Source of the DNA: Niebla homalea
Lineage: Eukaryota; Ascomycota; Lecanoromycetes; Lecanorales; Ramalinaceae
Direction: 5' to 3'
Length of the DNA: 64,000 bases
NCBI GenBank assembly: GCA_019925105.1
Contig: JAHGAU010000008.1
Coordinates: forward strand, 310,001-374,000
Part shown: one piece after another, positions 15,781 to 54,976 of the stretch
How the letters are laid out: each line of letters opens with the position of its first letter
Numbering within the stretch: position 1 is the stretch's first letter
Made by a program: the position numbers and the translations under genes
Notes under the pieces: model-generated
The model's database searches: none
Seen by the model: the letters and a program-made list of their open reading frames with translations, nothing else
What the model was told of the DNA's origin: nothing

Positions 15781-17235
15781 TCATATGACGCCTTCATTCC
15801 CCGCTATCAAAAATGCAATCCAAAACTTCCCCACTCCTGCCAACGCCCCCGTACCCACAGGTCCCACGCTTTGACTCAACGTCTTGACCACATTGACAAT
15901 CCCCATCACCGCCGTCCGCTCGTTCGGCAGGACAGCCGACGACAGAAAAGCTTGACGTGGCGCTTGATCCATACTCGACATGCTATGCCTCAGGATCAGG
16001 AGCGTCATAGCCAACCACGCCTGAGGCGGCAGTGGGATTAAGGCGAGGAAAATCGAGGAGGGGAGGTGGGTGAGCACCATTGTCTTGATCAGACCGATGC
16101 GGCGCGCGATGGAAGATGCCGCTAGCGTGCCGATTGCAGCGACTATGGACGTGACGAAGAAGAGCGTGCCGAGCTGGCCTTCGGGGAGGTTGAATTTGCG
16201 GGTGAAGAAGTAGGTGATCCAGGACGGGGGCACGAGGCCGCTTGCTCCGGAGTCCACGGCGAAGAGGAGGCAGAGCTTGAGCAGCGTCAAGCGTGATTGA
16301 CGAGATATGGTCGCGAAGGCTGCAAATCTTGACTTCTTGGCTGGGGGTTCCTGTGGTGATTCTTGCAGGGTCCGAGTTGCGCCTGTTCCCTTGTGGACCG
16401 AATTCCTTTCTGACGAGCCGTTTTCTTCTTCACTGTCGGAAAGCAGGCTCCGGGCGTCCACATCGTCCATCTCGACCACTGCCTCATACTCCTGCTTCGG
16501 TGGCTCGGGCTCGCAGTTCCCGCTCAACATGACCGAGAGGCCCAATTTCACTAGGCCCAGGAGTGCGTAGATACCGAACATGGCGCGATAAGCCTTGACA
16601 TCGCTCCATCCACCAGAGATCAATGCTTGCACGAGCCAGCCGCAAGTGATGGTTCCGATCGCAGTGCCCGCGCTGCCCATCAACGTGTACCAGGCGAAGA
16701 TGTCGCTGCGGATGTCTGTCGGGGTGAGATGTGCGAGCGTGGATTCTTCGATCGCTTTAAAGGGTCCGATCTCATTCCCACTTTACATGAATAGTCAGCG
16801 TTTTCCTGAAATTCTCCGCCTGTGGGAGAAAGGAGAAGGTATTTACCTTGGGCTGATGACTCCCACAATGCTCGCCATTACAAGGATCCAATACTTACCA
16901 CTCATGGCGAATACCAATCCACTCGCCGTCATCAAACCCGCTCCCAGCATCAGGATCCGCCGCCGCCCCAAGCTATCCGCTACCAGCGTTAAGAGAAAGC
17001 TGATAACAACATCACCAAGCAATGTCAAAGTCATGAAAAGCCCGATCCTGGCGTCGGATGTACCAAGACTGGACAAGTACAGCGCCAGGATTAGCATTGA
17101 CGCACCATACGCGAATAGTCGGATGAAGCGCTGCAGGCATAGCAGCTTGGTATCTCGCGGGGAGTGGAGGAGGGAGAAGATGCCCAGTTCTGTGGCGATG
17201 GTTGATAGCATAGAGGTGACCTTTGATGAGGCCAT
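15781..17235 (-). CDS. MFS transporter (C-terminus frameshifted)
   Basis: Exons 17235-16847 and 16780-15781 (66-nt intron) give 462 residues. The N-terminal half has the MFS loop signature LVADSLGRRRILMLGAG and SPSGNEIGPFKAIEES across the splice site. A central acidic cytosolic loop (about 215-270, DARSLLSDSEEENGSS) separates the two six-helix bundles; the second includes GLVPPSWITYFFTRKF and RHSMSSMDQAPRQAFLS. The family resembles uncharacterised fungal MFS proteins related to yeast YCR023C; substrate unknown. The ORF stops early at IAGNEGVI. Skipping one G of the GCGGGG run (+ strand C4 at 15799-15802) would continue with MKASYDLGLLKMFLGFKG to a stop at 15688-15690, a C-terminus I recognise from relatives. 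So the terminus probably carries a one-base homopolymer error or a recent mutation. Confidence 0.85.
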
Positions 17236-17505: not shown

Positions 17506-18808
17506 TCACCACATATCACCGCTCGGTCCCACGTTGGTGGATTCCGCCGGTTCGTTTTCTAAGGTTCTCGCAAAGGATGGCACCTGCTTCTGGACGTTCT
17601 TCGCACCCTCAATGATTGCGAACTTACGTCCCATTTCCCTCGCTTCTTTCACACTCTGCCCTAGGTTGCCTAGTAAAGAGACCAGCTCCACATCGGATTT
17701 TTCCGCTGTCGTTTCTTGCTGAAATGTTGGCAGGTCGCCCGCAGGTAGAAGAAGAGGGAGACGGGTGAGGAGAGCTTGGATGGAGCGGAGTAGGGGATAG
17801 TTGACTTCTGTCGCAGGTCCCGCTGCAGGTGCCGGAGCTGGGGTGGACAGGTCGGAGGGAGTGGTAAGATCTGATGCCGGTAGAGAGGTGAGGTAGGACT
17901 TCAGGAGCTTGATTCGTGTATGTAACATCTTGATTGCGTTCGCACGGGCGGTGAGGGATGCAATGACTGTATCAGAGGGATGGGGTCAGTAAAAGGGTAG
18001 TCGTTCATTCCGAGGGCAATGATTGCTTACGCTCTTCGTCCTCTGGCGACAAGAAACTCGAATCGTCCAGCCCCGCAGCCTCTTTCTTTGTAGCATTCCC
18101 ATTCTCTTCGACCTGGCCCACAGGAGCCTGACTGGCTTGAGGTTTCTTCTCCGCCTGTACTGTTCCATCCACGGCTGTAGCATTTCCACCACCTCTTGCA
18201 ACAAAGTCCACACTGATCATCTCCGCTTCCCCCGTCTCGATCGAATACGGCAATTCCCTAAACCGCAACTCCAAACCCGGCTCTTTCTCCCCTGTATCCA
18301 TCACATCCCCGCCCCTCTCCACCGCAGTCTCGTAGACACTCTCGTAGATCGTCAGCGGCAGCTTCCCACCCGTCGCTCTCCCCTCCAGTACCCCCGAGGG
18401 GTGAAAAGCAAGCATAATTGCAGTCTCATTGTACCCCTGCAATATCTGCTGATGTATCGGCACGTGCTGTGCTTCCGGCCCCGTCGCAGGAGCCGTCGTG
18501 AACCAGCCCACGAGATCTAGCAGGGGTGCCTGATGGACGTCTCTGTATTGCTGTAGGCGGTCCTTGAACCAAGCCTCGTGGAGGATGTATTGACCATCAT
18601 CTTCTTTTGCTTCGAGCAGGACTTCGAACGCATGCTCGAGGCTGACGGTACGGCCCGTTTGCTGGCCTAGTAGGGCTCCCACTATGGGTTCAGTGTGCTG
18701 GCGGAGGGTGTGTCGGGTGATATAGTCAGAAATTGTGAGGAGGATGAGAGGATGGAGGTTGATGATCAGGCCGGAATCGGAGGACTTGTGGGTTGAGAGG
18801 AGGGACAT
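17506..18808 (-). CDS. CSN6: COP9 signalosome subunit 6 (MPN-, catalytically inactive)
   Basis: Exons 18808-18031 and 17966-17506 (64-nt intron) encode 412 residues. The MPN domain begins INLHPLILLTISDYITRHTL and continues through VGALLGQQTGRTVSLEHAFE and LVGWFTTAP to PIHQQILQGYNET. The JAMM zinc ligands (HxH and the following Asp) found in CSN5 are absent, as expected for the structural subunit CSN6. The C-terminal helical part (LIASLTARANAIKMLHTRIK, with the splice junction between Glu and Leu-Ile-Ala) builds the helical bundle of the complex. The COP9 signalosome removes Nedd8 from cullins and in fungi links light, development and secondary metabolism. The intron falls in a disordered Gln/Ala/Glu linker before a conserved helix. 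Confidence 0.9.
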
Positions 18809-19411
18809 GATCGATCACAGTGAGAATGAATCAAGGATGAAGCTCCCAAACTGATCTCGCTGGATGCTGGATCATGGGAAGCAGCAAGGCTTGCTGAGAT
18901 CTCATGTCACACCGCAAATGTGAGGACGACCATGTGGCTCAGTCTGGCTCGGATCTACGTTCGCCTTTGTTGATTGCGTCAACATACGATTAAAGGAAAG
19001 ATCGAAGGTCCTCAAAGCTATTGCCGAAAAGGGCTTGTGTTAGAGCTTGGAGAAGGTGGTACATTCCATTACGGCAGTGTATACTTGAGCACACCCTGCC
19101 TCGCATTCAACCTCAGTCATTCACAACAAGAATCAGGCAATAATAACATCAGACGGCAAGATTCACACCACTATTGCAACGGTGGAGAGGGATGTATCGA
19201 ACGACGATAACCACGTTGACTGAATCAAAGCCGCACTTATCCATGTCCACGTTAAAATAGTACTTTGTCCATTAATCTTGTGTATTCTCATGACAATTAA
19301 AATAATATGGTATAATCCTTGAAGCTTTCCCTAGGTTTCTGCGGCAATTTCACCCCTCAACGCATTGTAATGCAAACGCTCACATCGAAAACACAAAATG
19401 CAACGCCCATG
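18809..19411. other. intergenic, border of accessory island
   Basis: Contains the CSN6 promoter and the 3' flank of the next gene. No gene seen. It separates conserved genes on the left from the duplicated membrane-protein family on the right. Confidence 0.45.
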
Positions 19412-22432: not shown

Positions 22433-22815
22433 CGTCTCAAGGGGTGTTGTGAGGTAAGAAAGGAATCAAGATTGATGTGAGGTCGATGTCAAGCTCCTTT
22501 AATGAGTCTCAGCCTCATGACACCCACCACCAATGCCTGGTCCAATCAATCCCTGCAATTGGGGAAGTACGTAGTGATCCACCCCTCCACTTTCCAGCTT
22601 CAAATAATCGCAGACCTTACACTCATCGGCTTGGTCTTCCAACGGAATTCCGCGAATGCCTCACTATCATCCTGATATTCTCGTGCCTTACAGTAGTACT
22701 TATATTGAAAAAGTACGACTTGAAAAAAAATTGCGCCTCGAAAGTATCATTATCGGGATATCTGCTACCAGAATATTCGATAATCAACAACAATGCAATC
22801 TGAAGGATTACAACT
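22356..22815. repeat. direct segmental duplication, left copy
   Basis: Aligns by eye, same orientation, with 32771-33255. Shared blocks include GATATTGAA.GGGT, CCAATGCCTG.TCCAATCAATC, CATCGGCTTGGTCT, GCGAATGCCTCAC, ATTCTCGTGCCTT and CAACAATGCAATCTGAAGGAT. It covers the start and promoter of family copy 2. Divergence appears to be of the order of one in four or five bases with small indels, so the duplication is not recent. Confidence 0.7.
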
Positions 22816-23718
22816 ATTTCGGACCGAGGGGACATAAGAGAGAGATTTTAGACGAAGTATCTACGTCTGTAAGCGGCGTACATCATAAGCGATTACCTCA
22901 TTGACCATCAAGGTCCTTGCGTCTATACCGAAAGATCGATTTAGCTGAATTCTCCCTGCTTCATGTGGGTAATGAAACACTGCAAACTATTGTCGTAGAA
23001 TTCAATTACTTTACTTAAATTCAAAGTAAACTAACCGACGAGGCAGAGAGACGCTCCAAGTTTATGTGCGGGATCGGAAAGGACAGAACATACCTTCACA
23101 GCTTACCAGCAAGTGTATACTGGATTGCAGCGAGATACAGAATCGCCGTGCTTACCTTTGTCCTGAATGATGAAGGTGAGCCAGAGAGCTGACTTGTAAT
23201 TCACACGATGGGATGGAATGCCCCACGCCACTCGCTAGGGCTTGTTCATCCAGATGCTCTCGCTGCTGGGGACCCAGACGAAGACTTGAATACTCCCATT
23301 GCACCAGCTCCTAATGACAGTGGCATTGCGAAAGGCGCGGCAGGGCTTCACAATAGCAACACAGGTCAATCCATATACCGATGCAAGACCAGTACAATGG
23401 AGGAGCTTGAGGAAGTACTAATGCAAGAGGAAGCACTCAAGCAAGGCGGGAAAGCAGTCCAAGGTGGGACGAGCGCTGTGGTTGAAGCGATATTGGTTGA
23501 GGGTGGTCAAGCATGGCTTGGCGCAGGTGGAGATGACTCTCATTGGGGGACTGGCTGACACTGCAAGTCATTCATATGGTGTGCTTCCTTATCTATCCAG
23601 AAGCAGGACATTTGTTGAAACCATGGCCCCGAAGTACTGCCATTACTCGGGGTAAACAAGCCGAACGTTTTGAAAGAGCGCACACCCCCTCATTCCAGGT
23701 GAGCTGTCCCCTTACTTT
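22816..23718. other. mostly non-coding, 3' side of RiPP precursor
   Basis: AT-rich at first (22900-23060). A 116-codon ORF at 23208-23558 is listed separately at low confidence. No other gene is supportable. Confidence 0.4.
23208..23558 (+). CDS. orphan ORF, doubtful
   Basis: A 116-codon ATG-to-stop ORF with the acidic stretch DALAAGDPDEDLNTP and TMEELEEVLMQEEALKQGGK, then Gly-rich sequence. It has no signal peptide, membrane segment or family signature that I recognise. It is listed only because it lies inside the RiPP locus, convergent with the precursor gene. It may be chance or a gene relic. Confidence 0.2.
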   Translation: MGWNAPRHSLGLVHPDALAAGDPDEDLNTPIAPAPNDSGIAKGAAGLHNSNTGQSIYRCKTSTMEELEEVLMQEEALKQGGKAVQGGTSAVVEAILVEGGQAWLGAGGDDSHWGTG

Positions 23719-24140
23719 TCAAGAGGCGTAGGAGCTTTCAGCCTCCTTCCCAACAGCCAGCATACCGTCGGCTTCGAAGTTGCCTCGTTTGGGCTTTGTT
23801 GCGTAAGAGCTCTCGGCATCGTTGCCAACGGCCAGCATACCATCGGCTTCGAAGTTGCCTCGTTTGGGCTTCGTTGCGTAGGAGCTCTCAGCGTCGTTGC
23901 CAACGGCCAGCATACCGTCGGCTTCGAAGTTGCCTCGTTTGGGCTTCGTTGCGTAGGAGCTCTCGGCATCGTTGTCAACGGCCATCATACCGTCGGCTTC
24001 AAAATCTGCATGATGTTAGCATCCCTAAGTCATAGCAATGTTGAAGTATGTCAGAACCCACTTCCGGGGCGGGCTGCTGGAGCGGCAATAGCGTGGCCAG
24101 CGAGCAGAGCCAGAGCAAAGAGGGATCGAAGACCGTGCAT
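23719..24140 (-). CDS. Kex2-processed repeat precursor peptide (dikaritin-type RiPP candidate)
   Basis: Exons 24140-24062 and 24005-23719 (56-nt intron, donor GTGGGT, CTAAC branch site, GCAG acceptor) give 121 residues. Residues 1-19 (MHGLRSLFALALLAGHAIA) are a signal peptide. From about residue 26 the protein is four copies of a 25-residue unit reading GNFEADGMLAVGNDAE and then SSYATKPKR. Dibasic Lys-Arg sites at 49-50, 74-75 and 99-100 are ideal for Kex2 cleavage. The splice junction falls inside the first unit (G|N|FEADG), which proves the model: splicing restores the repeat exactly. The first unit has MAVD for LAVG; the last has GKEAE and ends SSYAS with no dibasic site. Signal peptide, tandem cores with a conserved Tyr and KR spacers match precursors of ustiloxin, phomopsin and asperipin. 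Divergent to a UstYa gene 555 bp away. The mature product is unknown; candidate core SYATKP is inference. Confidence 0.88.
23722..24003. repeat. 75-bp coding tandem repeat
   Basis: Four units with a 75-bp period, the middle ones nearly identical at DNA level (for example GAAGTTGCCTCGTTTGGGCT recurs). They encode the 25-residue cores of the precursor. The near-identity suggests recent expansion or gene conversion; unit number may vary between strains. Confidence 0.85.
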
Positions 24141-24695
24141 TGTCACAAATTTTTGTTATTGCGTTGTCCGAGGCGAGGGGCAAAGTCAATACTTGTGCTT
24201 TTCCAGGTGTTTGTGGAATATGTTGAGTAAGATGGGTAATATTCGTGGGGAGATGCACGATATTAAATAGAGCAGCTGATTTGAGCCTCCCTTCTCGCCG
24301 TCCGCATTTCTTTCTTCAGTGACTTCTCCTCACTGTGCAGTAAAGTGACAACATGCAGAACATCGTCACTCACAACCCTGATCAGCGGGTGGGGCGTGCA
24401 GATTGTTGTACCAGTACTCGCCGCTGCTGTAAGAAGACCTTCCGTACAGGCACAGGGAACTGTTACTGACGACCGCCAATAGGAGATTCTCGACGACCTT
24501 ATCGTGCACTCGCTCTGTTCGCTGACCCTCTCGTTTAGGCACCAAGCCGGGTCAGGTGAGTGAAGAGACTCTAAGTAGGTCCGTTTGGTTTTGCGAGCAG
24601 TTATGCCGGACTCCTCACTTACAGTGCTTGCTGGGTCCTAAGTCCAATATGATTTCAATCCACTTCATTCCCTCAATTCTAGCATGTAAAAGGAC
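24141..24695. promoter_or_regulatory. divergent promoter of precursor and UstYa genes
   Basis: 555 bp separate the two start codons, which point away from each other, so both promoters lie here. This arrangement allows co-regulation. I identify no specific factor site. Confidence 0.5.
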
Positions 24696-25656
24696 ATGGC
24701 GCCCACGGAACCCAGCAGTCGCCTTGAGAGAATGAAGTTTCTTAACATCCACGAGATTGAAGAGTATGACGACCTCGAAGTCGCTCCTCGCTCAGGGTCA
24801 AAGATATCGTCCAAACGCAGGCTTGGAACAAATCTGATATGGTTGGCTCATGGACTGTGCATTGCAACTTGCGTCTTGTTACTGTTGGCCGCCTCAAGGA
24901 AGTCACCCAAGGAGAGCAGTAGTTGCGTACGAAAACTGAACGCCTTCTGTGAGGGGACTTGTTCCATTGAGAGGGGAAGTGCTGAAGTAGTCGCAGCTCC
25001 AATACTCAAGGGGCTGAAGGATGATGAGTACGAAGACATCAGGTTTACATATTCATTGTGGTACAAGTCCCCCTTCAAAGGACCGCCCACACCAGAAGTG
25101 GAACGGGCATGGCAAAGCATCATGCAGTGTATGTCAACGTCCTCTAAGATGCGACTGGAATTGGAGAAGCTGCTGATCAAGATTGTCTGGTTTAGATGGC
25201 CAAATCAGCGTCACGTCCGACGACATTGTTAGGATCGGCCACAATCTCACCACAGCAGTCAGATACCCGCCCTCCGTCGCCGATGGTGGCTATCCCGCCA
25301 CAGCCATGGGTACGCACGCCCTTCACTGCTTACACTACATCTGGCAGGACCATTACATCGACACATCGCCAAATGTCCAAACCCTGAAATATGACATCCC
25401 GGAGATGTATGAACGACATTACGAGCACTGCGTGGACTACATCCGACAGTACTTGATGTGCAAATTTGATACTACGATAATGCCGTTCGCTTGGGTGCTG
25501 GATCATCAGAATCCGACGCCGAATGGGAACACCATCCACAGGTGTGTGAATTGGGAGTCGCTGCAGAATTGGTTGAGAGAGAGAGCGGTGGAGAAGCCGG
25601 AAGGATTTGAGTGGAAGCAGCCTGAGGATGCGGTGTCTTTGGACTGGAATCCCTAA
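24696..25656 (+). CDS. UstYa-family (DUF3328) oxidase-like protein
   Basis: Exons 24696-25128 and 25196-25656 (67-nt intron) encode 297 residues. A cytosolic N-terminus (about 1-45) is followed by one membrane helix (about 46-66, LIWLAHGLCIATCVLLLLAA) and a lumenal domain. The family hallmark is present twice: HALHC at 185-189 and HYEHC at 219-223, followed by VDYIRQYLMC and FDTT, the usual Cys-x-Asp-x-Thr region. DDIVRIGHN and GGYPATAMGTHALHCL are also typical. UstYa proteins catalyse oxidative macrocyclisation of precursor cores in dikaritin RiPP pathways, and some related proteins do other oxidations or halogenation. The copy sits divergent to the Kex2-repeat precursor, the canonical pairing. 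Only one such protein is visible here; many pathways use two. Confidence 0.93.
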
Positions 25657-25717: not shown

Positions 25718-27297
25718 CTACAAGGACAATAATCTTTTACCAAGCCCCGTTTTCCCCGCTCTCTGTCCTCTATTTGTCCACGCAATCATACCCAGATATC
25801 CAACCGTCGCTGCCGTCCCCAAACACGTCGCACCAATACAGATCGCATACCCCAATCTATACCCCGGCGCGTCCTTGCTCAGAAAGCTGAATGTCGCCAC
25901 GATGCCGCCTGAATTCCCAAATCCGATCATCCACGCAGTCCCAATGCTCCGCTCCTTATGGCCTTGCAGATTCATCACGTACCAGCAGACTATAATGGGT
26001 CCCCCCGCGAATGCGCCCATGGTGACCAAGCAGATCGCTGCGTATTGGACATGAAAGTTGTTGTGGATGGTGAAGAGGATGGCGAGGCCTATGATTGTAA
26101 GGGCTTCACAGAAGAGGATGAACGGGTAGCGGAGGAGGGTGCGGTCAGAGAGGTAGGCTGTAATGAGACAGAGGGCAAGGGCGGCAGCGACTGGTGGGAC
26201 TGTGTGAAGTTGCGTTTGGACAGTGCTGTAGGACAAGGCTTTGATGATGGTGGGAGTGAAGTAGGCGAACGAGTAGATGGGTATGACGATGGCTGGGCTT
26301 CGGTCAGCATAAGGAACCGGCACACAGGCCTGGTGTGCTTGTGCTTACCAAAGTACATGGAACCGCCAAACAGATTCTTGACATCTGTGAAAAACAACAC
26401 GATGTCCTGCATAGTGATTTTGTGATCCCCCAGGTCATCCCTAGTCCTTGCGACAACACATTTCCTCTCTTCTTCGCTAAGCCAGCTCGCATCCTGGGGA
26501 AAGTCTGATATCAGGAAGAATGATATCACGCCTATTAATATCGTCGCCAGACCTTCGAGGATAAAAATCCACCTCCAGCTACTGTAGCCCTGCACGCCAT
26601 CCATCTTCGCAATGGCGCTTGCGAGCAAGCCGCCAAACATGGTCGCAGTCAGCACAGAGCACCAGTAGACCGTAAATCGCTTTTGCGCTTCTTCGCGCTT
26701 GTACCAGAAGCTGATCAGATAGAAGCTTCCGGGGAAGATGCCCGCTTCAGCAAGACCAAGGAGGAATCTTGTCGCCAAAAGACTGCTATAATTCTGAACG
26801 AATCCTTGACACATCATAACGATACCAAAGGCCAATATGCAGCTTGAGAGCCACAGGTGAGGCTTCAGCTTCTTCATGACGAGATTGGAGGGCAGTTCGA
26901 AGAGAACATAGGGGACAAAGAAGATGGTGAGTGCAACGTTCGGCTGCTCTCCCGTGAGATTGAGATCCTTGGGTAGACCCAGAGTCAAGGCATTGGATAT
27001 GTTGACCCTGCATAGCGTTCAGTCGTCGCGCCTGAGGAGCTTCGGAATGAACTGATCTCACCGGTCAAGGAAAGCTGCCACGTATAGCAAAAAGAGCATG
27101 GGGATGACTCGAGAGTCAAGTTTCCGTACCAACGCTCTTTCATCGACTGAAGATATTGTGTTGAGTTCCAGAGCATCTTCTGAGGACGACGATTCGATGG
27201 AAGTCTCCAGCTTCTCTCCATATCACAGCAAGATCAGTTTATTTTCGTGCCAGCATGACATGCATTTGCCAGTACCTTGTTTAGGATCCTCCATCAT
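25718..27297 (-). CDS. MFS transporter, anion:cation symporter type
   Basis: Exons 27297-27276, 27215-27062, 27007-26349 and 26292-25718 (introns 60, 54 and 56 nt) give 469 residues, all junctions in frame. Features of the ACS family (Dal5/Tna1-like): SRVIPMLFLLYVAAFLDR|VNISNA, GLPKDLNLTGEQPNVALTIF, YVLFELPSNLVMKK, RFLLGLAEAGIFPGSFYLIS and SSWRWIFILEG. A cytosolic loop contains WLSEEERKCVVAR. The second half begins AIVIPIYSFAYFTPTII. This family imports or exports carboxylates, vitamins, allantoate or small peptides. Its 3' end is 61 bp from the convergent UstYa gene, so it may serve the RiPP locus, but housekeeping uptake is equally possible. Confidence 0.85.
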
Positions 27298-28781: not shown

Positions 28782-30228
28782 ATGTCTACAATTTCTAGCC
28801 TCAAACCGGCGATTTCACCGCCAGCGGGAGTGGCTCACAACTTTGATCATCCACCATCGCTTTCAAAGTGGAACACCTTGTGTGTCTCGGTTTGCCTTAC
28901 AGTCACGACAGTTGTGTTCCTGCTGCGCTCATACGTCAGACTTTTTATCAAAAAACAATGGATCTTGGAGGATTGTGCGTATTCTTTCCACTCCGCTGCA
29001 AAGGAAGGCGCTGATCGTAAGCAGGGCTCTGCCTTATATCATGGGTGAAGACTTGCCACTCATCTTCTTCGCTTGCAGATTGCTGATCTCATCACAGACA
29101 GGGCTGATAACATACAGCGCATTGATGACGACTACAATGTACAGGCACGGGGGCGTGCACGAATGGGACATGACTTTCGAAAATGTCCACCAAGCAATAT
29201 ACGTAGGCCAAGAACCTGGCTCTGGAACAGGCTCTGTCTAATGGGCAACAGTGGTTCAACGTGACATCCATCGAGTATGCGCCCATCATTCTCTGCACCA
29301 AACTCGCAATCCTGCTTCTCTACCGCAGGGTGTTTGTGCCGATGAAAGGTGGTTTATTCGATTGGGCGATCCGTATTTTCATGGCAATCTTGATCGGCTT
29401 CTACATTGCGACAACACTTGTCAAGACATTCGAATGTAAACCAAGAGACAGGATATGGAACAAGTCGATACCTGGCCATTGCATTGATGTATCAAGCTTG
29501 CTGAATACTAGTGGCCTCTTCAATACGATTACCGATGTCATCATTCTCCTGATTCCGGTCAAGGCCGTTTGGAATCTGCGCATGCACAAGAAAAGGAAAT
29601 TGGCAATTGTACTGGTGTTCACGGTTGGCCTATTGTGAGTGAAGACTCGCAACACCCCAACTGATCATTTATCATGTTGACGTCATGCAGAGCGCCTGTT
29701 TTCAGCATGATTGGCTTCGTTGTGCGCATCTGCATCAGCGCCAACCCAGACGTCACATACAATCAGCCGGAGATCCTGCTTTGGGCGTACGTCTTCCTCG
29801 AAAAATTGGGCACCCTACTGAAATTGCGCGACACTGACCATCGCAGAGAGGCAGAGGTGTCTATGGGTCTCATATGCGTCTGCATTCCCACACTTGGGCC
29901 ACTCGCTCACCGACGTGGTCCCCGCGGTCCGAGCCACAGCATTCTCAAAGGTGAGACAACTGCCCGCCGCAAGTACTACGGAGGTGCAACAAAACTGTCT
30001 ACAAGCTTGGAAGACGATCGACTTTTCGACAAAGTCACAGGAGGTCATTCAGCGCTCACAACACCGCCAACTGCAGTTGTCACTGGAATTGCTGGAGGTC
30101 CCGGGGTTGATAGCCATGGAGAGACGGGTATTGAACTTCAAAATTCGGATAAGGCGCAGTCCAGGGAGGACCTGGATAGGTCAAATGCTATTGTGACAAC
30201 AGTAAGGATGGAACATTCGTACGTCTAG
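28782..30228 (+). CDS. PTH11-like fungal rhodopsin-domain membrane protein
   Basis: Exons 28782-28978, 29079-29202, 29252-29634, 29691-29786 and 29847-30228 (introns 100, 49, 56 and 60 nt) give 393 residues. All five join in frame. Family features: LRSYVRLFIKKQWILEDCA, TTTMYRHGGVHEWD, WFNVTSIEYAPIILCTKLAI, LLYRRVF, FECKPRDRIWNKSIPGHCID, GLFNTITDVIILLIPVKAVW and the final AEAEVSMGLICVCIPTLGPL. About seven membrane helices are expected, with a long Ser/Thr-rich cytosolic tail. No CFEM domain precedes them, unlike classical PTH11. These proteins are candidate GPCR-like receptors, but most are uncharacterised. It sits inside the duplicated-flank block with the RiPP genes; a functional link is only inferred. 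Confidence 0.85.
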
Positions 30229-30926: not shown

Positions 30927-32404
30927 ATGGATCAAGATATTGAACACAATGTCAGGTCACGCCATTCAGCGGACAGCTGGTCCTCCGTAAGTCGGTAGCA
31001 GGGCAAAGAGATAGCGACAGAATTGACATGGAGCAGAAGAAGAAGCTCTTCGTAGTCATCACCACCCTCCTTATCAACTTCAACACCACCTTAAGCTCCA
31101 GCCTCCCCAGTGGCGCTATCGAGAGCCTAAATGATGCATTTGCGGTGACGTCTAGTCAACAATCAGCATTACCCGTTGCATTGTTCCTCGTCGGATACAT
31201 CTTCGGACCTATGGTGTTTGCTCCTTTGAGCGAAGCTTACGGGCGTCGCATCTGCCTCCTCTCCGCCTTCGGCTTCCACACTGCTTTCACGCTTGGATGT
31301 GCACTTTCAAAGAGTTGGCCTCTATTGCTGTTCTTCCGCTTCCTGGTTGGGTGCGGTGCCTCAGCGCCTCAAGCTACACTTGGTGGCATGTACAGTGACC
31401 TCTTTAGTGATCTTGTCCCTCGAGGCCGCGCTGTCATGTTGTTTGGCCTCACATCAAACATTGGTCCCCTCATTGGACCAGTAATTGCTGGATTCTCCTC
31501 TGTCCATGACTGGCGGTGGATGTTCTGGATTAGCCTGATTATGAATGCGGTCGTTTGGCCAATGCTACTTCTACTTCCGGAGACCTTCCCTCCTGTCCTT
31601 CTCCGACAGATCAAAACCCAGGAGAAGGGTAAAACGGCATCACCTCACCAGACGAGCGGAAATGTCTGGAGGAAGACGGCCAAGGTTGTCCTGACACGTC
31701 CGTTCCGCATGTTTCTGGAGCCAGTCGTCCTTCTCACCGATATCTTTCTACTGTACCAATATTCGATCCTCTTCCTCTACTTCGAGGCATACCCGGTCAT
31801 ATTCAAAGGGGTCTACGACATGAATTCAGGCGTCGCAGCATGCATGCTTCTTCCCATCGGGATCGGTGCCATTGCCGCAGTATTTATCTTTCTGTCGTGG
31901 GATCGCTTCTACCAGCAGAGCAAAGCCAAGGGCAATATCTGGGCGCAACGTACCGAGTACAGTCGCTTACCACTTGCCTGTGTCGGCGGTCCACTCTATG
32001 CAGTCTCAGAGTTCTGGCTAGGTTGGACTGCAAGGCCGCACATCCACTGGATTGTGCCCGCACTATCTGGCATCCCGTTTGGAATAGGCATTGATCTGAC
32101 CTTCATGGCTCTCAACACGTACGTGGTAGACATTTACGATATCTACTCATCTTCGGCCTTAGCTTCGTCTGTCCTCAGTCGCAATATCGCTGCAGCACTA
32201 TTACTGCCGCTGGCCACGTCTCCAATGTATGATAATCTGGGCATTCCATGGGCGTGTAGCTTATTGGGGTTTATCTGCGCTACTTTGTTGCCCATACCAT
32301 TTTTATTCTTACGGTACGGTTCAGCGCTCAAAGCCAGAAGTCCATTCTGTCAACGCCTTGAGGAAAAAGGGTCCAGGGTTGAAGAGATCGCCGACATGAT
32401 CTGA
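30927..32404 (+). CDS. MFS multidrug-type transporter (DHA1)
   Basis: Main exon 31034-32404. A short first exon 30927-30986 (intron 30987-31033, donor GTAAGT) adds MDQDIEHNVRSRHSADSWSS before QKKKLFVVITTLL, so the product would be 476 residues. The alternative is an ATG at 31028 without splicing. DHA1 features: FNTTLSSSLPSGAI, LVGYIFGPMVFAPLSEAYGR (motif A region), FRFLVGCGASAPQATLGGMY, GPLIGPVIAGF, DWRWMFWISLIMN (motif C neighbourhood) and LPETFPPVLL ending the first half. Such transporters export drugs, toxins or secondary metabolites. It could be the efflux pump of the adjacent RiPP locus, an inference from position only. Confidence 0.85.
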
Positions 32405-32840: not shown

Positions 32841-33255
32841 GATTTACCGTCCTAAGTAATATCGTAAGAAAAAAAGGAGTTGTGACTGATATAAAACCGA
32901 TGATAAGCTCGTTTAAACGAGCCTCAGCTTCATAAGATCTACTACCAATGCCTGATCCAATCAATCCCCGTAAATGGGAAAGGTGGATACGTTGTGATCT
33001 CACCCTCAAGTGCTTAGTTCCAAACAGTCTCCGACCTTACAGCCATCGGCTTGGTCTCCCAATTGAACCCTGCGAATGCCTCACGGTCATCATGGTATTC
33101 TCGTGCCTTGCAGTAGTGCTTATACTGGAAAATTGCGCCTCAAAAGAAAAACCGCGCCTCAACAGAGAACTTGCGCCTCAGAAATATCAGTGTCTGGAGG
33201 TCTGCTGCCAGAATATTCGACAAACGACAACAATGCAATCTGAAGGATTGCAGTG
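32771..33255. repeat. direct segmental duplication, right copy
   Basis: Partner of 22356-22815 in the same orientation. It contains an extra short repeated motif, TTGCGCCTCA / CCGCGCCTCA / TTGCGCCTCAG, near 33140-33180, a local expansion of one TTGCGCCTC in the left copy. Together the copies bracket about 10 kb holding the RiPP pair, two MFS genes and the rhodopsin-like gene. Confidence 0.7.
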
Positions 33256-52291: not shown

Positions 52292-54976
52292 ATGCTACTT
52301 CGACATTTTGCAAGACCTGTCCGCGATCCGTCAGATTTGACCCGGCAATGCTCAAGATGCCACAGTAGAATAGTGGCTTGGTACATTACTCGACCCTATA
52401 CGACTTCCAAGAATGGCGTATCCGACATATCATCCAATGTGTCCAAAACACGTAATATCGGCATTATTGCCCACATCGATGCTGGCAAAACGACCACCAC
52501 GGAGCGTATGCTCTATTACAGTGGTCACACGAGACGTATAGGCAATGTCGATGAGGGTTCAACGGTGACGGATTTCCTACCTGCTGAAAGAGCAAGAGGA
52601 GTCACCATCCAATCAGCGGCCATCTCCTTTACTTGGCCGCCACTTTCGGATGCTGCTAGCACCACACCTTCATCCACTGCTGACTTGCAACCCCACAACA
52701 TCAATCTGATTGACACTCCTGGTCATGCGGACTTCACGTTTGAAGTGCTCAGATCTTTGCGGATCCTAGACGGGGCGGTTTGCATTCTTGATGGCGTAGC
52801 AGGGGTCGAAGCCCAGACCGAGAAGGTCTGGTATCAAGCATCCAAGTATGCGATCCCAAAGATTATCTACGTCAATAAGCTGGATCGTGAAGGAGCCGCC
52901 TTCGGTGCAGCCGTAAAGCAAATCGCTGACAGGCTGCATACTTGGCCAGCTGTTTGTCAAATTCCATGGTGGCAAAAGCTGGATAGCAAATGTATTGGCG
53001 TAGGAGATGCGATCGCCATGCGCGCGATCAAATATGCAGCTGACGGTGATGGTACTGATCTGAGTATCATCGAAATGGGCGAGCTCAAGAAGCTTGATCC
53101 CGCATTTGCAGAAGAGATTATCATGGCTCGCAAAGCCTTGATCGAGCTTTGCGGTGACAATGATGAGGGAATGATCGAGAGTTTCCTCCGGGCTGATGAA
53201 CAGCCACTTGCAATTCCCGCTGCCGATATCCTCGCAAGTCTGCGACGCTGCGTCCTCGACAAGAACTGCTACGTCACCCCTGTGTTTGCTGGGGCTAGCT
53301 TCAAAAACATCGGAGTACAGCCGTTGCTTGATGCCATTGTTCAACTATTGCCGAGCCCTGACCAAGCTATCGATCCAGAGGTGAAACTGGACAACCATCA
53401 GGGCACACTTTCAGAACTCCTGAGCGGCAAGTTGATGAATACGTCACCTATCTCTACTGCCTCGTCGAAAAAGTCATTCGCACGTCACAGGAAACAGTCT
53501 ACCGCGTTGATCGAGAATCTCGAAGCTTGTGCGCTGGCCTTCAAGGTCGTCTACGACCCACGACGAGGCATGCTGGTCTATGTTCGCGTTTACTCAGGAA
53601 CGATGCGCAAGCAGTCGATGCTCTTCAACACAAATCTGCAGATCTCAGAACGCGCCCCCCAACTTCTGAAAATGTACGCCTCAGATTCCGTGCAAGTCGA
53701 CGGGATCCCAGCTGGGCAGATTGGGGTCATACCTGGTCTCAAGCACGCAAGGACCGGCGACACTCTGATCACATATACTGGCGCAAACCCAAAGGCGGGA
53801 CCACCTGCTCCGCTCAATGCATTACAGCTTCGGCCAATTGACGTTCCGCCAGCAGTATTCTTCAGTAGCATCGAGCCGCATAGCATGAACGAAAGCAAGA
53901 ATATGCACTCTGCATTGGACATTCTTATCCGGGAAGATCCAAGCTTGACGTTAACGCAGGATGAAGAGTCTGGACAGACGCTACTCAGCGGAATGGGAGA
54001 ATTTCATCTGGAAATCGCGCAGGACCGACTGATTAATGACTTCAAGGCTAAAGCGTTGATGGGCAAGATAGAGATTGCCTATCGAGAGTGCATACTCCAA
54101 CCTTCTGCTGCAGCCTCTATTGAAAATGCAACAGCAGGCTGCGAAGTACACGTGCAGCCTCTTCCACCAGACGAAGAGCAAAAGGCACCTCCAGAACTGG
54201 ACTTGGAGAATCAGGCTAGCTCGACCATCCTGCAAGATGGCAATCGCGTTACCATCCTGGTCAAACCCAGCACTCCGTCCTCAGACCCAAGTTCGCCAAC
54301 TCAGACCGCGTCATCAACACCACTCAGCCTTCCAGAAACCCTGCCCCTACACACCCTTCAAACATCCCTCCGCAACGGGGTGCTCTCCGCCCTTTCCCGT
54401 GGTCCAAACCACGCCTTCTCACTCCACTCCACTGACGTAACTTTGACTTTGGATCCCACAACGTACGAGCTCCACAATAACACTACTGTCGCCTCTCTCT
54501 CTTCTGCCGCTCGCGCTGCCGCAAAAAGAGCGATCCGCGCCACCGCGCTCGAACACGGTACCTCGCTCATGGAATTGGTAATGCTGGTTACCGTCTCCGG
54601 CCTTGACGAGAGCAACCTCGGTACTGTGGTCAACGACTTATCAGGCAATCGTGGTGGCAGCGTGGTTGGGCTGGACGATGCATCTAGTGCTCAAGAATCA
54701 CCCGCATCTATCATGTCAAGCAATATTGATCTCGATCGCGTCTACGCTCCTCAAGATCCGTTTGGCAAGATGGAGACTGGTTCGTCTGGTGGGAATGAAA
54801 AGGGAGGACAGCGAAGTATCAGCGCGAGGGTACCACTGAAAGAGATGGTTGGGTATCTGAAACATCTAAGGAGTCTTACTGGCGGAAGGGGGACGTTTGT
54901 GATGGCACCGGAGAGGTTTGAAAGAGTGATGGGAATGAGGGAGAAGGTCTTGTTGAAAGAACTGAGGGGATATTGA
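52292..54976 (+). CDS. MEF2: mitochondrial elongation factor G2 / ribosome-releasing factor 2
   Basis: Single-exon ORF, 894 residues. An Arg-rich mitochondrial presequence (MLLRHFARPVRDPSDLTRQC) is followed by the GTPase domain: P-loop AHIDAGKTTTTER, switch I RGVTIQSAAISFTW, G3 DTPGHADF and G4 NKLD. EF-G domain II (LACALAFKVVYDPRRGMLVY-like region) and later domains follow, with SGMGEFHLEIAQDRL and the C-terminal VPLKEMVGYLKHLRSLTGGRG conserved in EF-G. Mef2 works with the recycling factor Rrf1 to split mitochondrial ribosomes after termination. Domain IV contains a low-complexity Ser/Pro/Thr insert (about 660-700), accounting for part of the larger size than bacterial EF-G. Upstream ATGs are absent nearby. 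Confidence 0.93.
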   Translation: MLLRHFARPVRDPSDLTRQCSRCHSRIVAWYITRPYTTSKNGVSDISSNVSKTRNIGIIAHIDAGKTTTTERMLYYSGHTRRIGNVDEGSTVTDFLPAERARGVTIQSAAISFTWPPLSDAASTTPSSTADLQPHNINLIDTPGHADFTFEVLRSLRILDGAVCILDGVAGVEAQTEKVWYQASKYAIPKIIYVNKLDREGAAFGAAVKQIADRLHTWPAVCQIPWWQKLDSKCIGVGDAIAMRAIKYAADGDGTDLSIIEMGELKKLDPAFAEEIIMARKALIELCGDNDEGMIESFLRADEQPLAIPAADILASLRRCVLDKNCYVTPVFAGASFKNIGVQPLLDAIVQLLPSPDQAIDPEVKLDNHQGTLSELLSGKLMNTSPISTASSKKSFARHRKQSTALIENLEACALAFKVVYDPRRGMLVYVRVYSGTMRKQSMLFNTNLQISERAPQLLKMYASDSVQVDGIPAGQIGVIPGLKHARTGDTLITYTGANPKAGPPAPLNALQLRPIDVPPAVFFSSIEPHSMNESKNMHSALDILIREDPSLTLTQDEESGQTLLSGMGEFHLEIAQDRLINDFKAKALMGKIEIAYRECILQPSAAASIENATAGCEVHVQPLPPDEEQKAPPELDLENQASSTILQDGNRVTILVKPSTPSSDPSSPTQTASSTPLSLPETLPLHTLQTSLRNGVLSALSRGPNHAFSLHSTDVTLTLDPTTYELHNNTTVASLSSAARAAAKRAIRATALEHGTSLMELVMLVTVSGLDESNLGTVVNDLSGNRGGSVVGLDDASSAQESPASIMSSNIDLDRVYAPQDPFGKMETGSSGGNEKGGQRSISARVPLKEMVGYLKHLRSLTGGRGTFVMAPERFERVMGMREKVLLKELRGY

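Follow-up and report, generated by a model that had tools for sequence, protein, structure and literature searches.

Does a short gene of tandem repeats that lies back to back with a UstYa gene in a fungal genome encode a modified peptide, and what would be done to that peptide? The question is raised by positions 23719–25656 of the 64,000-nt stretch analysed here (the window), where a putative secreted precursor, whose repeat units are separated by Lys-Arg (KR) sites, lies divergent to a gene for a UstYa (DUF3328) protein. The locus is probably of the ust-RiPS (dikaritin) type, that is, a source of ribosomally synthesized and post-translationally modified peptides (RiPPs), with a minimal visible gene set and in a probable lichen-forming Lecanoromycete. 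What points to this reading, by sequence features and by analogy, is the architecture and coding frame of the precursor, the family of the enzyme and its conserved motif residues, a kexin P-domain in the genome, the recurrence of the pairing, the precedent of a copper-dependent relative (CctR) and the enrichment of Tyr in comparable repeats.

The repeat precursor and its coding frame

The precursor gene was modelled on the minus strand of 23719–24140, which gives a product of 121 aa once a single 56-nt intron is removed:

24062–24140, minus strand: precursor exon 1, with the start codon and a signal-peptide-like start (MHGLRSLFALALLAGHAIAAPAARPG), judged by eye
24006–24061, minus strand: precursor intron of 56 nt (GTGGGT...GCTAAC...CAG), with GT-AG ends and a branch-like GCTAAC
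23719–24005, minus strand: precursor exon 2, with the remainder of unit 1, units 2 and 3, the truncated unit 4 and the stop codon

In the spliced model the N-terminus (MHGLRSLFALALLAGHAIAAPAARP), in which a signal-peptide-like segment (MHGLRSLFALALLAGHAIAAPAA) was read by eye, leads into three 25-aa units (GNFEADGMLAVGNDAESSYATKPKR) and then a fourth, shortened one. Unit 1 differs in carrying MMAVDND in mid-unit and is directly preceded by ...APAARP, not by KR. An earlier note on this DNA had described four 25-residue repeats, each ending in SSYATKP; the repeats and their KR sites stand, whereas SSYATKP is present in three of the four units, with SSYATKPKR ending units 1–3 only and the truncated unit 4 ending in SSYAS and a stop, so that the precursor has three KR sites. 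Because AESSYA is common to all four units and TKP to three of them, the exact core cannot be fixed from one sequence. The intron falls between the G and the N of unit 1, and its removal restores the GNFEADG seen in the other three units, which provides independent support for the intron model.

A repeat finder returned one family of three overlapping 128-nt copies at a spacing of 75 nt, in which the reference copy matches the two others at 90% and 91% identity. Over the first 20 codons of the copies 14 columns vary, and 12 of these are third positions. We compared the exon-2 copies in six frames over their first 17 codons and added up the differences from the six pairwise comparisons. In the proposed frame 23 codon differences are synonymous and 12 non-synonymous, with no stop, and it is the only one of the six that is both stop-free and mainly synonymous; a second mainly synonymous frame (27 against 9) has a stop in every copy. 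In the remaining four frames, two of them stop-free, synonymous differences number 0 to 3 and non-synonymous ones 33 to 35. This comparison led us to reject plus-strand coding and any other frame. A plus-strand open reading frame (ORF) of 198 aa (23674–24270) runs antisense across the whole precursor, and since its copies differ only non-synonymously (0 synonymous to 35 non-synonymous in the compared stretch), it is probably a by-product of the repeat.

A detector of Kex2-type repeats gave a single detection within the window, at the precursor. The precursor unit was matched once in the 50.6-Mb genome, and a multicopy repeat element as the origin of the precursor was rejected on that count.

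The divergent UstYa gene

24141–24695, no strand: divergent intergenic stretch of 555 bp, a possible shared promoter region by position only
24696–25128, plus strand: UstYa exon 1, with the N-terminal tail, a single hydrophobic stretch (a membrane segment as judged by eye) and the start of the luminal domain (PF11807, 29 bits, ORF 24690–25229)
25129–25195, plus strand: UstYa intron of 67 nt (GTATGT...TTTAG); the spliced protein aligns with its relatives
25196–25656, plus strand: UstYa exon 2, with both HxxHC motifs (PF11807, 104.6 bits, ORF 25177–25653)

Both gene models confirm that the two genes are divergent and 555 bp apart, as had been claimed, and UstYa is the next gene as far as modelled. 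The family assignment with both HxxHC motifs, also made earlier, is borne out by the two PF11807 matches and by the motifs HALHC (residues 185–189) and HYEHC (residues 219–223) of the 297-aa protein. At the level of sequence, the repeats, the coding frame and the gene models are in place, including the 56-nt and 67-nt introns that the earlier note had drawn.

A protein search returned 74 UstYa relatives with E ≤ 0.001. When the window protein was aligned with 38 of these 74, H219 and C223 were invariant and H185, H188, C189 and H222 were at least 90% conserved. The top three named relatives by E-value are from Pleopsidium flavum (58% identity over 95% of the query), Lobaria immixta (75% over 66%) and Xanthoria calcicola (67% over 75%), all of which we take to be lichen formers; the next named relative is from Sclerotinia trifoliorum (60% over 84%). 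A relative from Fulgogasparrea decipioides, like Lobaria a Lecanoromycete, reaches 75% over 62%, and further entries reach 89% over 51%. Because the non-lichen genera Ophiobolus (64% over 58%) and Alternaria (59% over 67%) are also among the relatives, the enzyme group is wider than lichens. A search for UstYa relatives with genomic context gave 42 pattern matches in viral contigs and 23 in genome contigs, with no confirmed relative among them.

UstYa had no sequence match among solved structures at E ≤ 1. The predicted structure of a 280-aa homologue (P0001), of modest confidence (mean predicted local distance difference test score 69.9, predicted template modelling score 0.49), places the HxxHC motifs (168–172 and 202–206) on helices 165–180 and 196–216, with a short helix between them and after a long helix (44–83); a Foldseek search of this model against the PDB gave nine matches with E ≤ 10 and none with E ≤ 0.001. 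A functional precedent is CctR, the DUF3328 hydroxylase of cyclochlorotine, described in 2025 as a copper- and O2-dependent membrane-associated homodimer in which HxxHC(x)nHxxHC is the likely two-copper site (PMC12435403). By that account the window protein shares with CctR the enzyme family, an N-terminal-proximal membrane segment and the HxxHC(x)nHxxHC arrangement, whereas the substrate that CctR hydroxylates is a non-ribosomal peptide (PMC12435403).

Recurrence of the pairing in the genome

The genome contains at least 33 UstYa matches at 23 places, of which 12 were read for at least 6.4 kb on each side (most for about 10 kb) and the other 11 for 1.5 kb on each side. At 5 of the 12 well-read places a Kex2-repeat gene lies within 2.3 kb of the UstYa match, namely at the window locus, at three clear others and at one that looks decayed:

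contig C14, 113368–113899: precursor with eight detected units (...GPIAYPDAYKR); both strands carry UstYa matches, that on the minus strand having both motifs and that on the plus strand one found
contig C3, 1013417–1013823: precursor with four units (...ELYPAPDLGRIKVDD...); a UstYa match that has both HxxHC motifs lies divergent at a distance of 1.66 kb (region 1011006–1013823)
contig C38, 420299–420730: precursor with six units (EPQENDLQYKYGKYAEEKR), each with three Tyr; UstYa matches, with one HxxHC found, lie divergent at a distance of 2.0 kb
contig C29, 426741–427014: repeat ORF with degenerate units; the adjoining UstYa match is interrupted by eight stops, and no HxxHC was found in it (region 424075–427014)

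The degenerate units, the eight stops and the lack of a detected HxxHC motif are what make the C29 locus look decayed. By eye, the repeat sequences differ among the five places. The detector gave 7 detections in 3736 ORFs at these 5 places (three overlapping C38 frames being counted separately) and none when the residues of the same 3736 ORFs were shuffled, over ten rounds. The earlier logic of pairing a repeat precursor with UstYa is thus supported by four more repeat genes beside UstYa matches. A kexin P-domain was matched once in the genome, on contig C24.

The C14 precursor has two further enzymes close by, an aromatic amino acid lyase (PF00221, 447 bits) and a P450 (PF00067, 194 bits); this region (C14:105326–125325) is a candidate RiPP cluster that is richer, and perhaps more unusual, than the window locus.

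A known class and a peptide without a match

Kex2-repeat genes beside DUF3328 genes are an already published class, to which the window locus adds one: in the 2020 catalogue, 1758 (22%) of 7878 Kex2-repeat proteins have DUF3328 neighbours, so the locus belongs to a known class (PMC7329392). As described in that catalogue's text, such proteins average 5.25 per ascomycete strain and 2560 of them lack any homologue; a DUF3328 gene lies on average 3.09 genes from the Kex2-repeat gene; and Tyr occurs in 65.6% of repeated sequences with DUF3328 neighbours against 38.2% of those without (PMC7329392).

Set beside the ust-RiPS of Umemura 2020 (PMC7329392) and of Nagano 2016 as cited there, the window locus is alike in its signal-peptide-like start, KR-separated tandem units (three full and one truncated, the repeat arrangement expected of ust-RiPS), Tyr in the unit and nearby DUF3328 gene, and it differs in a 25-aa unit with one Tyr for which no sequence match was found. 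The five-gene dikaritin definition of Ding et al., as quoted in PMC12048977, includes a tyrosinase, a methyltransferase, multiple DUF3328 genes and a transporter or peptidase. With no tyrosinase match on its contig and a single UstYa gene, the locus falls outside that definition, although a major facilitator superfamily (MFS) gene, of a kind that is common, is adjacent; it falls within the later definition, which needs no tyrosinase and turns on a nearby DUF3328 gene with two HxxHC motifs, here 555 bp away (PMC12048977).

The search of about 5.8 billion proteins for relatives of the precursor gave five candidates, none with E ≤ 10, a null that carries little weight, since gene prediction readily overlooks short genes with introns. 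A full-text literature search with four strings from the unit likewise returned nothing. That the product should be new, as had been proposed, therefore holds in the sense of no match found, within a scope of the protein collection and article full text that leaves aside the sequence tables of the 7878-protein catalogue; the class of pairing itself had been counted by 2020 (PMC7329392).

Proposed mechanism and competing explanations

From this arrangement and by analogy with characterised systems we infer the following course. The transcript would be spliced in vivo as modelled, and the precursor would enter the endoplasmic reticulum by its signal peptide. Kexin would cut after the three Lys-Arg sites to release peptides of the GNFEADGMLAVGNDAESSYATKP type, which other peptidases would trim further. 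The membrane-anchored UstYa, with its two HxxHC motifs as a putative two-copper site in the secretory lumen, would oxidise that end. The most likely chemistry is crosslinking of the one Tyr in each unit, by an ether or another bond, which would yield a cyclised product, and otherwise hydroxylation.

Several observations count against a ust-RiPS assignment. The locus is known from DNA alone. No repeat gene was found at 7 of the 12 well-read UstYa places, nor at any of the 11 places read for 1.5 kb on each side. The closeness of repeat genes to UstYa is only moderately non-random, as 35.7% of the 296,213 scanned bases lie within 2.5 kb of a match, giving 0.357^5 = 0.006, an estimate for which the 2.5-kb threshold was picked after seeing the data and the scanned regions were all centred on UstYa. 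No tyrosinase was matched on contig C8, which carries the locus (11 matches lie elsewhere in the genome), and this absence tells against the assignment because ustiloxin and phomopsin need a tyrosinase. A partial Pfam scan covered 30 window ORFs, where there are 69 of 140 aa or more, and not all of the short exons; JAB was the one peptidase domain that it showed, and it showed neither a methyltransferase nor a P450 domain. The unit has YATK, not the Y-x-I-x core of ustiloxin and phomopsin (motif as given in PMC7329392).

The clusters of ustiloxin and phomopsin resemble the window locus in combining a repeat precursor with a UstYa-type enzyme, whereas here no tyrosinase was matched on the contig, no methyltransferase appears among the 30 scanned ORFs and there is one UstYa gene instead of two or more, the only two of the genome's 33 UstYa matches on C8 being the two exons of the window gene. 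The asperipin-2a cluster, with the core FYYTGY, reportedly has no tyrosinase either; it too pairs a precursor with a DUF3328 enzyme, but its core is unrelated, and the window locus has no identified reductase and one Tyr per unit.

The alternative that survives best is a variant of the favoured explanation, with which its odds overlap: UstYa hydroxylates or otherwise alters the peptide and no ring is formed. We consider this possible, if on the unlikely side. One Tyr per unit and the contig's lack of a detected tyrosinase would suit it, as would the range of reactions in which DUF3328 enzymes are implicated (hydroxylation, halogenation, macrocyclisation and isomerisation), CctR being a hydroxylase (PMC12435403); yet all three structurally known ust-RiPS products that PMC7329392 discusses are cyclised via ether bonds at Tyr.

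It is distinctly less probable that the gene encodes a linear secreted signalling peptide, like the pheromone-type Kex2-repeat proteins, while UstYa acts on something else. KR-separated repeats alone do not imply modification. The unit has no Trp, however, a residue typical of alpha pheromones, and the precursor and UstYa are divergent at 555 bp in a pairing that recurs in the genome. In the 2020 catalogue, 6120 of the 7878 Kex2-repeat proteins have no DUF3328 gene among their 15 closest genes, which leaves room for linear products, but the annotated mating factors and pheromones among them lack DUF3328 neighbours with three exceptions, so that a neighbour of this kind speaks against a pheromone (PMC7329392).

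Least credible of all, and very improbable in our view, is a chance open tandem repeat beside a UstYa gene: tandem repeats expand readily, other frames across this one are long and open and two of the five others are stop-free in the compared stretch, but the synonymous bias is confined to one stop-free frame, the intron is placed so as to restore unit 1, exon 1 has a signal-peptide-like start and shuffled ORFs gave no detections.

The probable lichen-fungus setting

The favoured reading, a ust-RiPS locus, gains its main interest from its host. An elongation-factor-G-like protein encoded at window positions 52292–54973 has its best named relative, among the best 120 of 7999 matches, in Ramalina farinacea (Ramalinaceae, Lecanorales, Lecanoromycetes) at 83% identity, with three further entries at 81–83% and the next named, Letharia lupina, at 65%. 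Together with UstYa, this protein indicates that the host is most likely a lichen-forming Lecanoromycete allied to Ramalina, an assignment that rests on two proteins. The Dothideomycete setting assumed earlier finds no support and was rejected, as the closest named relatives of both proteins are Lecanoromycetes.

By its own account, a 2025 survey of 111 lichen-fungus genomes found no conserved repeats in its dikaritin-like clans R1 and R2, which it describes from Parmeliaceae (PMC12048977). The window locus shares with these clans UstY homologues with HxxHC and, most likely, a Lecanoromycete host, but it has repeats where R1 and R2 are described without conserved ones (PMC12048977). Among the papers listed by our literature search there was no other lichen survey of Kex2-repeat/UstY precursors, and the words lichen, Xanthoria, Cladonia and Lecanoro- are absent from the main texts of PMC7329392 and PMC6339444. 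The locus matters mainly because it places a canonical repeat precursor next to an intact UstYa gene in a lichen lineage, in one probable lichen-fungus genome that also has three clear further pairs and a decayed-looking one, with different units. Since predicted peptides for mass spectrometry exist, the lichen question is testable, and the loci offer enzyme–substrate pairs for the newly defined copper family DUF3328.

A bolder possibility, to which we give little credence, is a two-gene RiPP system of a repeat precursor and a single tyrosinase-free UstYa, in which an enzyme with close relatives in several lichen-forming Lecanoromycetes would act on a fast-evolving peptide, placing a UstYa crosslink on a previously unseen Y-A-T-K-P core and yielding species-specific modified peptides used inside the lichen symbiosis.

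Neighbouring genes

25718–27222, minus strand: MFS transporter of several exons, approximate, convergent with UstYa (PF07690, 90.5 bits on 26092–27018; outer exons by reading)

A link between this adjacent MFS gene and the peptide is uncertain, MFS genes being common; the window has other MFS transporters at 30944–32401 and 15784–16782. Two stretches, 32916–33252 and 22501–22812, are 74% alike, lie about 10 kb apart and flank the locus on either side, with no further genomic copy found, and by that search the stretch 22500–23715 is not a high-copy element, having two further partial genome matches. The other neighbours are an ORF with a fungal rhodopsin domain (29207–29635), a JAB-domain protein (18008–18814) and ORFs without matches.
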